Virus record (IMG/VR): IMGVR_UViG_3300021961_000538
Location: 1-26,489 of that record
From: a virus
Strand: one strand, 5' to 3'
Length of the DNA: 26,489 nucleotides
Part shown: positions 5,756 through 19,653 of the stretch, one piece after another
Layout: every line of letters begins with the position of its first letter
Numbering within the stretch: the stretch's first letter is position 1
Translations under genes and position numbers: made by a program
Notes under the pieces: model-generated
Databases searched by the model: none
What the model saw: only the letters and a program-made list of their open reading frames with translations
Told to the model about the DNA's origin: nothing

Positions 5756-7222
5756 ATGGCAATGCTAGAAGACGTACTGGGCCAATACAACCAAAGCAAC
5801 TTTGATATTGGCTCGGCTGCGGCGCTCATCCGCCAGCTTGGGCAACAAGTGGGGCTGTCCGAAGAAGAACTGGCCGCTGCCGTCCCAGTGTTCGGCGACG
5901 AGCATCGGGCGGCGATCAACAGCGGCTACACCGAAGGCAGCAACTATTCTGCCATTGCTCAACGTGCGGTTGCGGACGCTCTGGATGCGCGGGGGGTAGA
6001 CTCATCGCGCTTCAAACAGGCCACGCAAGGCTTTGTTGACCAAGGCGCACAACAAGCACAACAACGGTGGCAGGCGACACAAAAACCGAATAAAGGGTTG
6101 TTCGGCGATCTTGGGCCGATTGCCAAAATTGCCGCGTTGTTTCCCGGCCCGCAGCAACCGTTCCTTCTGGCAGCAAATGCGGCAAACAGTCTTAGCCAGG
6201 GCGATCTAATCGGTGCGGGAACAAACGCTCTCGGAGCCTATGGTGGTTTCAGCGGGGGGTACAACCCCGGTGCTGGTGGCGAGGGGGCATTGTCTGCTTC
6301 CGAGTTTGCGGCCAATGCTGGCCCCGCGTACACAGGAGGCAATATGGACGGTTTTGACCCTAGCGAAGTTAATCTTGGCGAATACCAGAGTTTCAGCCCC
6401 GGCTACACCGGCGACATGAACTTAGGTGAATATCAGAGTTTCCCCGCTACCGGCGGTGCCTCTGGGCAGGGGATGCTACAGCAACTCATGTCCGCTACCG
6501 GCTTGACCGAAAAGCAGCTTACGGGTTTAGGCTCGGCGGCGATCTCAAGCCTTGCTTCGCTGTACGGAGCCAACCGAATAGGCAAAGCCGCCTCTACTGC
6601 GGCGAACATCGGTACGGGTGCGGCTGACCGCGCCTCGCAACTCCAGCAGAACCAGTACGACCAGACCCGTGCGGATCTTGCGCCGTATCGTATGGCGGGG
6701 ACAAACGCGTTGGCGCAACTGACGGCGGGTACGGCACCTGGTGGGCAGTTCACCAAGTCATTTGGCATGTCGGACTTTGAGCAAGACCCCGGCTACGGCT
6801 TCAGGATGTCCGAAGGCTTGAAGGCGCTCGACCGTACTGCGGCGGCTCGCGGCAACCTGTTGTCAGGGGCCACGCTGAAGGGCGCACAGCGGTACGGGCA
6901 GGATCTGGGCAGTCAGGAGTACCAGAACGCGTTTAACCGCTACCAGACCAACCGCAGCAACGTCCTGAACCCGCTCCAGAGCCTTGCCGGTGTTGGACAG
7001 ACTTCGACCAATCAAGGAATTGCTGCGGGGCAGAACTACGCAACCAACGTGGGTAACCTCGGCATGGGCGCTGCGGCTAACCAAGCTAACGCGGGTCTGA
7101 CCGCCGCACAAGCCAACCAATCTGCATACGGCAACGTCGGCAACGCGTTTGCAAATTACCTTACGCCCAACCCCATGAACGAGTTCTTCCAAAACCAGCT
7201 TAACAAGCGGCCGGGGCAATAA
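5756..7222 (+). CDS. DNA transfer (ejection) protein, gp7-position
   Basis: The 488-residue protein uses the ATG at 5756, with AGGAGA six bases upstream; a longer reading from GTG 5717 lacks this and overlaps the previous gene. The C-terminal half carries a pattern common to podoviral internal DNA-transfer proteins: FEQDPGYGFRMSEGLKAL, then AAARGNLLSG, YGQDLGSQEYQNAFNRYQTN and NVLNPLQSLAGVGQ, followed by Ala/Asn/Gln-rich amphipathic sequence. The N-terminal half is helical and then Gly-rich (residues about 150-240) with a short protein-level repeat, NLGEYQSF at residues 206 and 222. The first of three tandem ejection-type genes, it occupies the position of P22 gene 7. Such proteins leave the capsid with the DNA and help build the channel across the cell envelope. 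The exact gp7 equivalence is inferred from gene order. Confidence 0.72.
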   Translation: MAMLEDVLGQYNQSNFDIGSAAALIRQLGQQVGLSEEELAAAVPVFGDEHRAAINSGYTEGSNYSAIAQRAVADALDARGVDSSRFKQATQGFVDQGAQQAQQRWQATQKPNKGLFGDLGPIAKIAALFPGPQQPFLLAANAANSLSQGDLIGAGTNALGAYGGFSGGYNPGAGGEGALSASEFAANAGPAYTGGNMDGFDPSEVNLGEYQSFSPGYTGDMNLGEYQSFPATGGASGQGMLQQLMSATGLTEKQLTGLGSAAISSLASLYGANRIGKAASTAANIGTGAADRASQLQQNQYDQTRADLAPYRMAGTNALAQLTAGTAPGGQFTKSFGMSDFEQDPGYGFRMSEGLKALDRTAAARGNLLSGATLKGAQRYGQDLGSQEYQNAFNRYQTNRSNVLNPLQSLAGVGQTSTNQGIAAGQNYATNVGNLGMGAAANQANAGLTAAQANQSAYGNVGNAFANYLTPNPMNEFFQNQLNKRPGQ

Positions 7223-15580: not shown

Positions 15581-15660
15581 TTGTCGCCCCAAATTAAGAT
15601 TGAAAAACATATCATTGCGCCAATGGCGCAAGCGTGAGAAACGATTTCCGAGATGCTCAT
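15577..15660 (-). CDS. 27-residue membrane micro-peptide
   Basis: ATG 15660 overlaps the stop of the upstream 131-residue gene and the stop overlaps the ERF start, both as ATGA, so it fills the gap exactly. The peptide has a central hydrophobic span (about residues 9-24, HACAIGAMICFSILIW) with a polar N-terminus and a GDK end. GGAGG lies just before the ATG, though very close. Its membrane-like composition and double coupling argue for real translation; function is unknown. Confidence 0.45.
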   Translation of the reverse strand: MSISEIVSHACAIGAMICFSILIWGDK

Positions 15661-16052
15661 TCCTCCTCCGAGGCGCGTTCGTTGGCGAGGTCAGACACGA
15701 TGTCGGAACCCGTCAAATGCATGATGAGCATTGCTTCGAGGTCAGACACGATGTCGGAACCCGTCAAATGCATGATGAGCATTGCTTCAACAGAGTTACG
15801 TTCGCGCCTGATGCGATTCTCAAGAGCTTGGCTGTTGTCGCTAATAGAGCAGAGGTACATCTCCCATGCGTAGCTGGGGTCGCGGTTCTCCATCAGATAA
15901 TCGTAGAGGTCAAACTGGGCGCGGCCCTTCTTGGGCCATTGACCGTACTCGAGGATGGTTTCAACGATCTCCTCAAGCGCCAACTCCAACTCTCTTTCCG
16001 TCAACTCGCGGCGCTGGTCTTCGTCCCCGTGGGCTTCGTTTTGGCGGCTCAT
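15657..16052 (-). CDS. 131-residue acidic protein with an internal 17-residue duplication
   Basis: The start ATG overlaps the stop of the upstream 32-residue gene. The N-terminal part is highly charged (RRELTERELELALEEIVETI), followed by a YG.WPKKGRAQFDLYDYL segment and a helical region. Near the C-terminus the segment EAMLIMHLTGSDIVSDL occurs twice in tandem, encoded by an exact 51-bp direct repeat, then LANERASEEE. The duplication keeps frame, so the protein is extended by 17 residues rather than broken. No family was recognised. Confidence 0.62.
   Translation of the reverse strand: MSRQNEAHGDEDQRRELTERELELALEEIVETILEYGQWPKKGRAQFDLYDYLMENRDPSYAWEMYLCSISDNSQALENRIRRERNSVEAMLIMHLTGSDIVSDLEAMLIMHLTGSDIVSDLANERASEEE
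15686..15787 (-). repeat. Exact 51-bp tandem duplication
   Basis: Two identical 51-base copies (15686-15736 and 15737-15787), plus one matching base at 15788. The period is 17 codons. Perfect identity implies a very recent or actively maintained duplication, or an assembly artefact. Confidence 0.95.
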
Positions 16053-18331: not shown

Positions 18332-18520
18332 ATGAAAACACTTGACGCGGTGCAACATTTTGGGAGTCGGCGAGCGATTGCCGACACTTTAGGAATCAGC
18401 AGGCAGGCGGTCTACGCTTGGGGGGCGGTCGTTGCCAGAGGTGCAGCGTACCGGCTCCAGGTGATGACCGCGGGGAAGCTGGTCGTGGACGAGGCCAAGT
18501 ACAAGCGGAGGAAAAAGTGA
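18332..18520 (+). CDS. Cro-like transcriptional regulator
   Basis: A 62-residue protein with a single helix-turn-helix near the N-terminus: AVQHFGSRRAIADTLGIS then RQAVYAWG, followed by AAYRLQVMTAGKLVVD and a basic tail (KYKRRKK). This is the size and layout of P22 Cro-type repressors. It is divergent from the left operon and should bind the inverted repeats at 18280-18303. No larger repressor gene partners it, so it is either a lytic-cycle switch or the only regulator here. No ribosome-binding sequence precedes the ATG; the promoter position suggests a leaderless mRNA. The stop overlaps the next GTG (GTGA). Confidence 0.8.
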   Translation: MKTLDAVQHFGSRRAIADTLGISRQAVYAWGAVVARGAAYRLQVMTAGKLVVDEAKYKRRKK

Positions 18521-18711
18521 GCAACGACGAGCTGAAGGTGCTGGAGCAGGAATACAACGACATGGCAGAGGAGGGCCGCGCCATGTGGGAGGATCTCGAA
18601 GGCTATGTGGTGCGGATGAAGGAGATCCGCAAGATCATTGACGCGGAGAAGCCAGGTTGTTACGACGAGATTGTGCTGCTCTTTGGCGGCAAGCTGGATC
18701 TCAGCCTATGA
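18517..18711 (+). CDS. Small acidic helical protein, unknown
   Basis: 64 residues from GTG 18517, which overlaps the stop of the Cro-like gene and has GGAGGAAAAA before it. The sequence (SNDELKVLEQEYNDMAEEGR, AMWEDLEGYVVRMKEIRKII) is an extended acidic coiled-coil-like helix with a short Gly/Leu end. Alternative longer in-frame starts lie inside the Cro-like gene and are not used. It is part of the immediate-early right transcript, which ends at the terminator 10 bases downstream. Confidence 0.65.
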   Translation: MSNDELKVLEQEYNDMAEEGRAMWEDLEGYVVRMKEIRKIIDAEKPGCYDEIVLLFGGKLDLSL

Positions 18712-18848
18712 ACTGGGCGAATTGGGCGAAAAGATTCCGCCCAACTATTTTTTGCGATTGCTTTGCAAAAAGTGAGGATCGGCTTATGATCTTAGGTGAT
18801 GCGTTGGTCGGCAGACCACGCAAGCTGAACCCAGCCAGTACTGGGTGA
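18708..18848 (+). CDS. Doubtful 46-residue frame across terminator and promoter
   Basis: ATG 18708 overlaps the previous stop (ATGA), and 46 codons are open (MNWANWAKRFRPTIFCDCFA at the start). However, the frame runs through a terminator hairpin, a promoter and a structured RNA, and it has no recognisable domain. It may be translated at the front by coupling, but most of it is probably non-coding. Confidence 0.2.
   Translation: MNWANWAKRFRPTIFCDCFAKSEDRLMILGDALVGRPRKLNPASTG
18722..18753 (+). terminator. Rho-independent terminator after the Cro-like operon
   Basis: A perfect 7-bp stem TTGGGCG/CGCCCAA with a nine-base loop (18722-18744) is followed by CTATTTTTT. It would end the immediate-early right transcript unless antitermination occurs, separating it from the replication genes. 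Confidence 0.8.
18763..18790 (+). promoter_or_regulatory. Promoter of the replication operon
   Basis: -35 TTGCAA (18763-18768), 16-base spacer, -10 TATGAT (18785-18790; five of six consensus positions). The predicted start is near 18797, at the 5' edge of the structured RNA. It lies directly after the terminator, as expected for an independent transcription unit. Confidence 0.6.
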
Positions 18849-18859
18849 TGGCGCATCGC
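18796..18859 (+). ncRNA. Three-way-junction RNA leader (new structured element)
   Basis: An outer stem GTGATGCG/CGCATCGC (18796-18803 with 18852-18859, one G-U pair) encloses two perfect hairpins: TGGTC-GGCA-GACCA (18805-18818) and ACCCAG-CCAGTA-CTGGGT (18829-18846). The structure starts where transcription from the upstream promoter should begin and ends 11 bases before GGAGG of the DUF1376 gene. It is not a tRNA (only two internal arms, no T-loop). It could be a cis-regulator, a 5' stabilising cap or a small RNA. Confidence 0.55.
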
Positions 18860-18879
18860 TCTACCTTACTGGAGGCTTG

Positions 18880-19653
18880 ATGAATTACTACCCATTTCAT
18901 ATCGGCGATTACGCCGCCCATACGCGCTATCTGACGCTGATGGAAGATCTGGCCTACCGCCGGATGCTGGATCTGTACTATGTCAGCGAAAAACCCCTCG
19001 AGCCAGCCGAACAAACCGCCCGATTGATCGGGATGCGCGACCACGTTGCGGAGGTCGGAACCATCCTATCCGACTTCTTTGAGGCTACCGAGGCGGGTTT
19101 CATCAATAAACGTGCCAACGAGGAACTGGACAAGTTTTCCCTTATGAAACAAGGGGGCCGGGATGGGGCGGCTAAGAGGTGGGGAAAGGGAGGGGATAGG
19201 GAGGCTATAGCCCCCCCATCGCCCCCCCAATCACCCCCTAATAGCAACCAGAACCAGAACCAGAACCAGAGAAAAGCAAGTACATCGGACGCTGCGCGAC
19301 CGACCCCTGCCCGTAAGAAGGTTCCCTTGCCGAGCGATTTTGCTGTTTCGCCTCGAGTTTCGGCTTGGGCTATCGAAAAGGGCTTTGACCGACTCCCTGA
19401 CCACCTGGACGCTTTTCGGCGCAAAGCCGAGATGAACGCTTACCGATATGCCGACTGGGACCTCGCTTTCATGGAGGCGGTTCGTGAGGACTGGGCGAAG
19501 CTGCGCGGTAACGGTAGGGCTGGACCGGCGCCGATAGCGGTCCCTGACGGCACGATTAAATGCGAAACCTGTGGGACGCGCACCCGACAATTCACCGGGC
19601 GGCAATGTGATCCCTGCTGGCGGGGTGTGGTTAACCCAAGGGTGGCGGCATGA
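18880..19653 (+). CDS. DUF1376 (YdaU-like) replication protein
   Basis: 257 residues from ATG 18880 with GGAGG four bases upstream. The N-terminus (NYYPFHIGDYAAHTRYLTLM, DLAYRRMLDLYY) is the DUF1376 domain, found in phage replication-initiation proteins such as YdaU. A low-complexity linker (residues about 100-140) is Pro/Gln/Asn-rich, with a QNQNQNQ run. A second domain with basic helices follows, and the C-terminus has a four-Cys zinc-binding motif (C228, C231, C243, C246). The linker DNA holds G-quadruplex, C-run and hexamer repeats, so the gene may contain the origin it acts on, as lambda O does. It is the first gene of the replication transcript. Confidence 0.75.
   Translation: MNYYPFHIGDYAAHTRYLTLMEDLAYRRMLDLYYVSEKPLEPAEQTARLIGMRDHVAEVGTILSDFFEATEAGFINKRANEELDKFSLMKQGGRDGAAKRWGKGGDREAIAPPSPPQSPPNSNQNQNQNQRKASTSDAARPTPARKKVPLPSDFAVSPRVSAWAIEKGFDRLPDHLDAFRRKAEMNAYRYADWDLAFMEAVREDWAKLRGNGRAGPAPIAVPDGTIKCETCGTRTRQFTGRQCDPCWRGVVNPRVAA
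19181..19269 (+). repeat. Candidate replication origin: G-quadruplex, C-runs and AACCAG iterons
   Basis: Within the DUF1376 gene: four G-runs with short loops on the plus strand (19181-19201), the palindrome GGCTATAGCC (19203-19212), two C7 runs and a C5 run (19211-19238; quadruplex potential on the minus strand), and four perfect tandem AACCAG hexamers (19246-19269). Placement inside an initiator gene parallels the lambda origin within O. Origin function is inferred. Confidence 0.5.

Follow-up and report, generated by a model that had tools for sequence, protein, structure and literature searches.

PreQ1-II and SAM-II riboswitches are translational leaders in which the Shine-Dalgarno sequence is hidden in a pseudoknot. 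Two phage RNAs also invite comparison. The leader pseudoknot of T4 gene 32 acts on the translation of a phage replication gene, lying about 67 bases upstream and nucleating protein binding (PMC3014915), and putL of phage HK022 is a short two-hairpin RNA located just downstream of its promoter (PMC9378689). Here, we analyzed a virus record of 26,489 bases (the whole of this stretch is hereafter called the window) from a phage for which no close relative was found among cultured phages, and in which a leader region sits between a Cro-like operon and a DUF1376 gene. Along the + strand, this region comprises a terminator-like hairpin, a promoter, a 64-base RNA, a Shine-Dalgarno sequence (18871-18875) and the start codon at 18880 (Table 1).

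Table 1. Features of the leader region and its neighboring genes (window coordinates)
Feature	Position	Strand	Evidence
Cro-like regulator, upstream operon	18332-18520	+	PF14549 P22_Cro, E 2.6e-17
ORF2, small, between cro and the element	18517-18711	+	Kept in relatives; no family above cutoff
Terminator-like hairpin and T run, after ORF2	18722-18753	+	Sequence; local accessory
Sigma-70-like promoter	18762-18790	+	-35 TTTGCA/TTGCAA; -10 TATGAT (18785-18790)
Three-way-junction leader RNA	18796-18859	+	RNAalifold consensus; covariance model R1, 96.8 bits; 19 contigs
Outer stem P1, 5' arm, GTGATGCG, pairing with 18852-18859	18796-18803	+	6 of 8 pairs invariant; UA/UG change at pair 2
Hairpin 1 (P2), TGGTC-GGCA-GACCA	18805-18818	+	100% paired; G-U changes at two pairs
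Hairpin 2 (P3), ACCCAG-CCAGTA-CTGGGT	18829-18846	+	Two-sided compensatory changes at three pairs
Pseudoknot 5' strand, hairpin 2 loop CCAGTA (anti-Shine-Dalgarno)	18835-18840	+	Complementary in every core; 3 of 6 pairs change two-sidedly
Outer stem P1, 3' arm, CGCATCGC	18852-18859	+	Same alignment as 5' arm
Pseudoknot 3' strand, TACTGG	18867-18872	+	Overlaps first two bases of GGAGG 18871-18875
DUF1376 (PF07120) protein gene, downstream of leader	18880-19653	+	E 4.2e-19

The DUF1376 gene product is probably a replication initiator. Short direct repeats were observed within the gene (19181-19270 of the window; AACCAG four times and C-rich 11-12-mers), as were GAGAACC repeats inside the DUF1376 gene of another contig (L116:5360-5420). 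In lambda, the replication origin is located inside gene O, and it is possible that the repeats inside the DUF1376 gene likewise constitute an origin. Elsewhere in the window, a 51-base exact tandem duplication (15686-15788) lies in frame (17 residues) within a minus-strand open reading frame (15657-16052), and is also present in contig L082.

The RNA folds into an 8-bp outer stem enclosing hairpins of 5 and 6 bp, with the junction sequences U, CGCAAGCUGA and GAUGG in the alignment. The 65-base element was moderately more stable than its shuffles (z -2.4, with 6 of 200 shuffles equally good), and a 179-base stretch gave a folding z of -3.6. Energy alone is insufficient to settle the fold, which is settled by comparison between relatives. 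Among eight distinct cores, hairpin 2 shows two-sided changes from C-G to G-C, A-U to G-C and C-G to U-A, and RNAalifold applied to the distinct cores chooses the same three-way junction. The original prediction had set compensatory base changes in homologs as the test of its fold and had looked for them in all three stems. They are present in hairpin 2 at three pairs, while the outer stem and hairpin 1 contain no two-sided changes, both being near-invariant and varying almost only by G-U. These G-U changes occur on the + strand and would be A-C mismatches on the other strand, which argues for an RNA. Because the outer stem and hairpin 1 lack two-sided changes, alternative pairings of the invariant part are possible, and the competing pairings UGCG/CGCA (extending hairpin 1) and UCGGC/GCUGA are frequent in unconstrained minimum-energy folds. 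A 4-bp complementarity between the start codon and the 3' arm of the outer stem, noticed by eye, was dropped as likely chance. Rfam scans of the window, both at the gathering score and up to E 10, matched no family to the element, upholding the earlier statement that it matches no recognized RNA family. No Rfam riboswitch was found either, the best chance match being DapZ at 19.9 bits (56 needed), located on the terminator.

The principal addition to the fold is a pseudoknot, absent from the earlier description, in which the hairpin 2 loop pairs with the downstream Shine-Dalgarno region. The loop is complementary to this region along its full length in all eight cores, in the combinations CCAGUA/UACUGG, CCUUUA/UAAAGG, CCUUCA/UGAAGG and CCUUUUA/UAAAAGG, with a shuffle p of 0.004-0.017 for each core taken singly; in contigs L087 and L090, a 7-base loop is matched by a 7-base target. 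Over the seven aligned rows (cores without the extra loop base), the whole structure including the pseudoknot is 99.4% paired, and six pairs, of which three belong to the pseudoknot, change on both sides. The covariation score of these seven rows was reached by 0 of 500 shuffles, and slid structures were at most 51.5% paired; the rows are related, yet the changes occur in several distinct combinations. Judged from this pattern of covariation, hairpin 2 and the pseudoknot are very probably real structures. The pseudoknot target ends 7-10 bases upstream of the start codon, and some variants form only a weak duplex, that of CCUUUA having -3.9 kcal/mol. As in leaders that mask a Shine-Dalgarno sequence, the conserved pairing includes Shine-Dalgarno bases of the next gene, and its conservation implies that the gene heading the replication operon is controlled at ribosome loading.

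We therefore favor, as a reasonably probable reading of the sequence comparison, a cis-acting leader that, by means of the pseudoknot, would hold back translation of the gene opening the replication operon, in most cases DUF1376. A riboregulator, an mRNA 5' cap and a source of small RNA had all been offered originally; the riboregulator, in the form of a leader with a Shine-Dalgarno pseudoknot, is the best of the three, and nothing specific favors a cap or a small RNA. The covariation of loop and target can also be read in trans, with the RNA processed into a small immunity or copy-control RNA that uses its loop to bind, on the transcripts of an incoming phage of the same loop type, the same Shine-Dalgarno site; phage P4 CI RNA and P1 C4 RNA are models for such a mechanism. 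Loop and target change jointly between close phages, in at least four matched types, as immunity specificity would, the RNA is a short replication-leader RNA at a promoter, and this is a point at which DUF1376 modules differing in loop type are swapped. However, downstream of the RNA neither a terminator nor a processing site can be seen, and loop and target always share a transcript, for which a cis pseudoknot is the simpler explanation. A literature search on the P4/P1-like immunity reading returned nothing direct, and we regard the trans-acting RNA as unlikely.

Comparison with the relatives also supports the earlier claim of a promoter followed by a structured RNA with which the replication transcript begins. 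The -35 element, whether read as TTTGCA or TTGCAA, matches at 4 of 6 positions with a spacer of 17 or 16 bases, and the -10 element at 5 of 6. TATGAT is unchanged across all relatives, always with exactly 5 bases, variable in sequence, between its end and the outer stem, and a -35 element (TTGCAA-like or TTGATT) lies 16-17 bases upstream of the -10 in all relatives but L090. The fixed spacing between TATGAT and the stem, together with the conservation of the -35, indicates that promoter and RNA form one unit, with an RNA that should start at the first base of the outer stem. The transcription start is thus predicted at about 18796, within a base or two of that position.

A 20-codon open frame (MILGDALVGRPRKLNPASTG, 18786-18848 of the window) begins at an ATG within the -10 box and runs through the element. 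That the conservation reflects a 20-residue peptide (MI..DALVGRPRKL...) encoded by this frame is hardly credible. The frame is kept in seven of nine variants, and the two changes in the invariant core are synonymous third-position changes, but a 1-base change of loop length in L087/L090 removes both frame and stop, conservation extends 11 bases beyond the stop codon, and the compensatory changes of hairpin 2 alter residues. There is also no consistent ribosome-binding site, and the ATG lies upstream of the predicted transcription start. We judge the frame to be incidental.

The terminator has a perfect 7-bp stem (18722-18728/18738-18744), a 9-base loop and six T at 18748-18753, and had been drawn correctly, but its loop exceeds the rule of the terminator scan. 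Among the relatives, only the near-identical L082 has it in front of the element, so it lies outside the conserved unit. The three-part cassette of 160 bases in the original prediction thus shrinks to promoter and RNA, with which the terminator is not conserved; for these two parts the case is stronger than originally put. The terminator 30-mer was also considered as a repeated mobile element and rejected: other copies have no T run, end in CCGCCCAG rather than CCGCCCAA, and probably belong to coding sequence.

To examine the distribution of the promoter-plus-RNA unit (18762-18879), we searched viral contigs and found it in 19, representing eight distinct RNA cores; the 19 include several near-identical contigs, and the identity of the cores partly follows from the exact search patterns used. 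One IMG/VR contig (L082/L005) is 99.9% identical to this phage and carries the same element. Four further copies, at 88-93% identity and with different flanks, were found by BLAST among contigs sharing cro and are free of pattern bias, the other copies having come from pattern scans. Model R1 confirmed the 19 contigs with 91-99 bits, against at most 24 for everything else. In global alignments of unrelated members, identity is 94-100% over the 33-base 5' half and falls to 56-72%, which is the alignment background, in both flanks. The genes upstream differ between the phages carrying the element, and a DUF1376-type gene is first or second downstream wherever the sequence extends that far. Searched by BLAST, cultured phages and plasmids gave chance matches to the element or none; of two exact-pattern scans of GTDB genomes, one gave 0 matches and the other 38, none passing the motif filter; and R1, run on about 150 DUF1376 loci, turned up no diverged copies. 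R1 also gave 0 hits in 399 genomes from the order of the Comamonadaceae genome G001, in a run that, having no positive control, carries little weight. With no diverged copies found, the family looks narrow, with sharp edges.

Mosaicism was observed around the element in a set of five contigs (L123, L116, L117, L087 and L090), with breaks at the core. L123 and L116 have a common left flank (93%) and a dissimilar right flank (68%), whereas L087 and L090 have a common right flank (97%) and a dissimilar left flank (60%). From these alignments, the element appears to act as a joint between modules, with the loop and the Shine-Dalgarno region moving together. The switching of flanks on either side of the core in these two pairs would also suit a conserved recombination joint, that is, a boundary for phage module exchange in which the structure is incidental. 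That explanation leaves the compensation in hairpin 2, the covarying pseudoknot and the fixed promoter spacing unexplained. It is very unlikely to be the whole account and is insufficient alone; a recombination joint is probably true in addition to the regulatory reading, not instead of it.

A natural deletion bears on the requirement for the element. Contigs L002 and L088 have lost ORF2, the terminator, the promoter and the first two thirds of the RNA, keeping its 3' arm and the ribosome-binding site as a scar; the DUF1376 protein is 97% identical to that of this phage, and the cro promoter is intact. The element is dispensable there, which is a point against the leader reading. The deletion spans the end of cro into hairpin 2 (L002:2950-3000, L083 and L088:4180-4225) and fuses cro to the scar, the fused reading ending in KRRKSTG. 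The element can thus be dispensable when transcription from cro runs through, as a control element would be.

Taken as a cis-acting leader, the promoter and the 5' RNA would form one portable module heading the replication operon. The leader would fold into the three-way junction, and the hairpin 2 loop would pair with the Shine-Dalgarno region and block ribosome loading. The outer stem, hairpin 1 and the junction would most likely be what a small molecule, or else a host or conserved phage factor, recognizes, and this recognition of the invariant core would make or break the lock, while loop and Shine-Dalgarno region could vary freely as long as they stayed complementary. Identity between DUF1376 proteins encoded behind near-identical cores drops to as low as 27-32%; as the core is fixed while these proteins differ so much, its reader is more likely a shared factor than the encoded protein.

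This divergence weighs against autogenous control in the style of T4 gene 32, in which the DUF1376 protein would bind its own leader and keep the lock closed. Such control would suit the presence of a DUF1376-type gene first or second after the element wherever the sequence reaches, and the T4 leader pseudoknot is a precedent (PMC3014915). However, a shared recognizer is more likely given proteins only 27-32% identical, L087 and L090 have a different small first open reading frame, and the T4 pseudoknot, about 67 bases upstream, does not pair with the ribosome-binding site. We consider autogenous control improbable.

The near-invariant core in front of differing downstream proteins could also belong to an antitermination RNA like HK022 put, which acts without other factors through the beta' zinc-binding domain of RNA polymerase. 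Such an RNA would stay on the polymerase from the 5' end of the transcript and give read-through of terminators in a long replication and late operon. Like putL, the element is an RNA of about 64 bases that carries two hairpins and sits right where a phage operon would begin to be transcribed (PMC9378689). Nevertheless, R1 found nothing beyond chance in the HK022 genome when run with no filters (best 11.0 bits, E 1, compared with 96.8 bits here, for a model built on the element and not on put), and the window holds no second copy of the element, compared with two put sites in HK022. Put-like antitermination predicts neither the covariation of loop and Shine-Dalgarno region nor a fixed place 10-16 bases before the Shine-Dalgarno sequence. 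It seems, on balance, a distinctly improbable function for this RNA.

We also compared the element with int-alpA (Rfam RF02996), which did not match it at the gathering score or up to E 10. In the positive control, the leader of contig L462 scored 36.0 against a gathering score of 35.8; Rfam thus calls this leader int-alpA just above threshold, while the leader of L016 falls below it. As only one scanned locus reaches the gathering score, RF02996 seems to under-call its family. When 85 other DUF1376 loci were searched with a covariance model (R2) built from 17 int-alpA-like leaders, in which P1, P2 and P3 covary strongly, such leaders were found at 35, almost all of them immediately in front of the gene and within about 130 bases of its start. 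Int-alpA-like leaders were observed in L006, L011, L013, L014, L016, L026, L402, L412, L417, L426, L450, L456, L460, L462 and L466, among others. On the window, R2 gave 3.6 bits at the wrong place, revealing no similarity of the element to these leaders; neither model detects the other family. The P3 loop of an int-alpA-like leader is often complementary to the bases that precede the Shine-Dalgarno sequence, 5 of 25 reaching p < 0.05 individually with crude parsing. With such an RNA so often directly upstream of DUF1376 genes and many showing loop complementarity, int-alpA-like RNAs gain a candidate function, and a cis-acting role in the translation of phage replication genes is now testable.

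Two further leaders were noted along the way. Contig L007 carries a second int-alpA-like copy (5940-5996, 43.4 bits) about 3 kb downstream of the first. A third leader type (GTGAGAAGCGCATAGC...CTCACCG), with a long loop-to-downstream complementarity seen by eye, occurs in L092 (at about 4.4 kb), before an HNH-like gene, and in L414 (3870-4000), before a DUF1376 gene.

Collectively, these observations point to a specific RNA lock that would control the gene at the head of a phage replication operon and, with its own promoter included, be transferred between phages as a unit. A wider reading, tentative and rather doubtful, is that the element represents a new class of switchable leaders, in which the core would sense a diffusible signal or host state and toggle an interchangeable anti-Shine-Dalgarno pseudoknot deciding replication, with int-alpA as a relative or analogue working alike. 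Among the known systems, the element shares with preQ1-II and SAM-II riboswitches a loop that pairs with the following gene's Shine-Dalgarno region, but its fold is different and it precedes a phage replication gene rather than a metabolic gene. The T4 gene 32 pseudoknot does not pair with the ribosome-binding site, whereas that of the element includes Shine-Dalgarno bases. HK022 put is like the element in size and position only; unlike put, the element has a loop that covaries with the ribosome-binding site. With int-alpA, which Rfam files as an sRNA gene while we read the element as a cis-acting leader, the likeness is of another kind. The diagnostic int-alpA junctions GGCUA and GAAAAG are absent from the element, and hairpin 1, the junctions and the outer stem differ, but both RNAs form a three-way junction with an outer stem and two hairpins, and relatives of int-alpA occupy the place of the element directly upstream of DUF1376 genes. 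The Rfam consensus has a pyrimidine-rich hairpin 3 loop (CCuU) and a complementary AgGG tail downstream, like the element, in which the int-alpA topology (P1-P2-P3, with the P3 loop complementary to a downstream segment) was found. By score and junctions, the element is not a member of int-alpA; in architecture and place, the two are alike.
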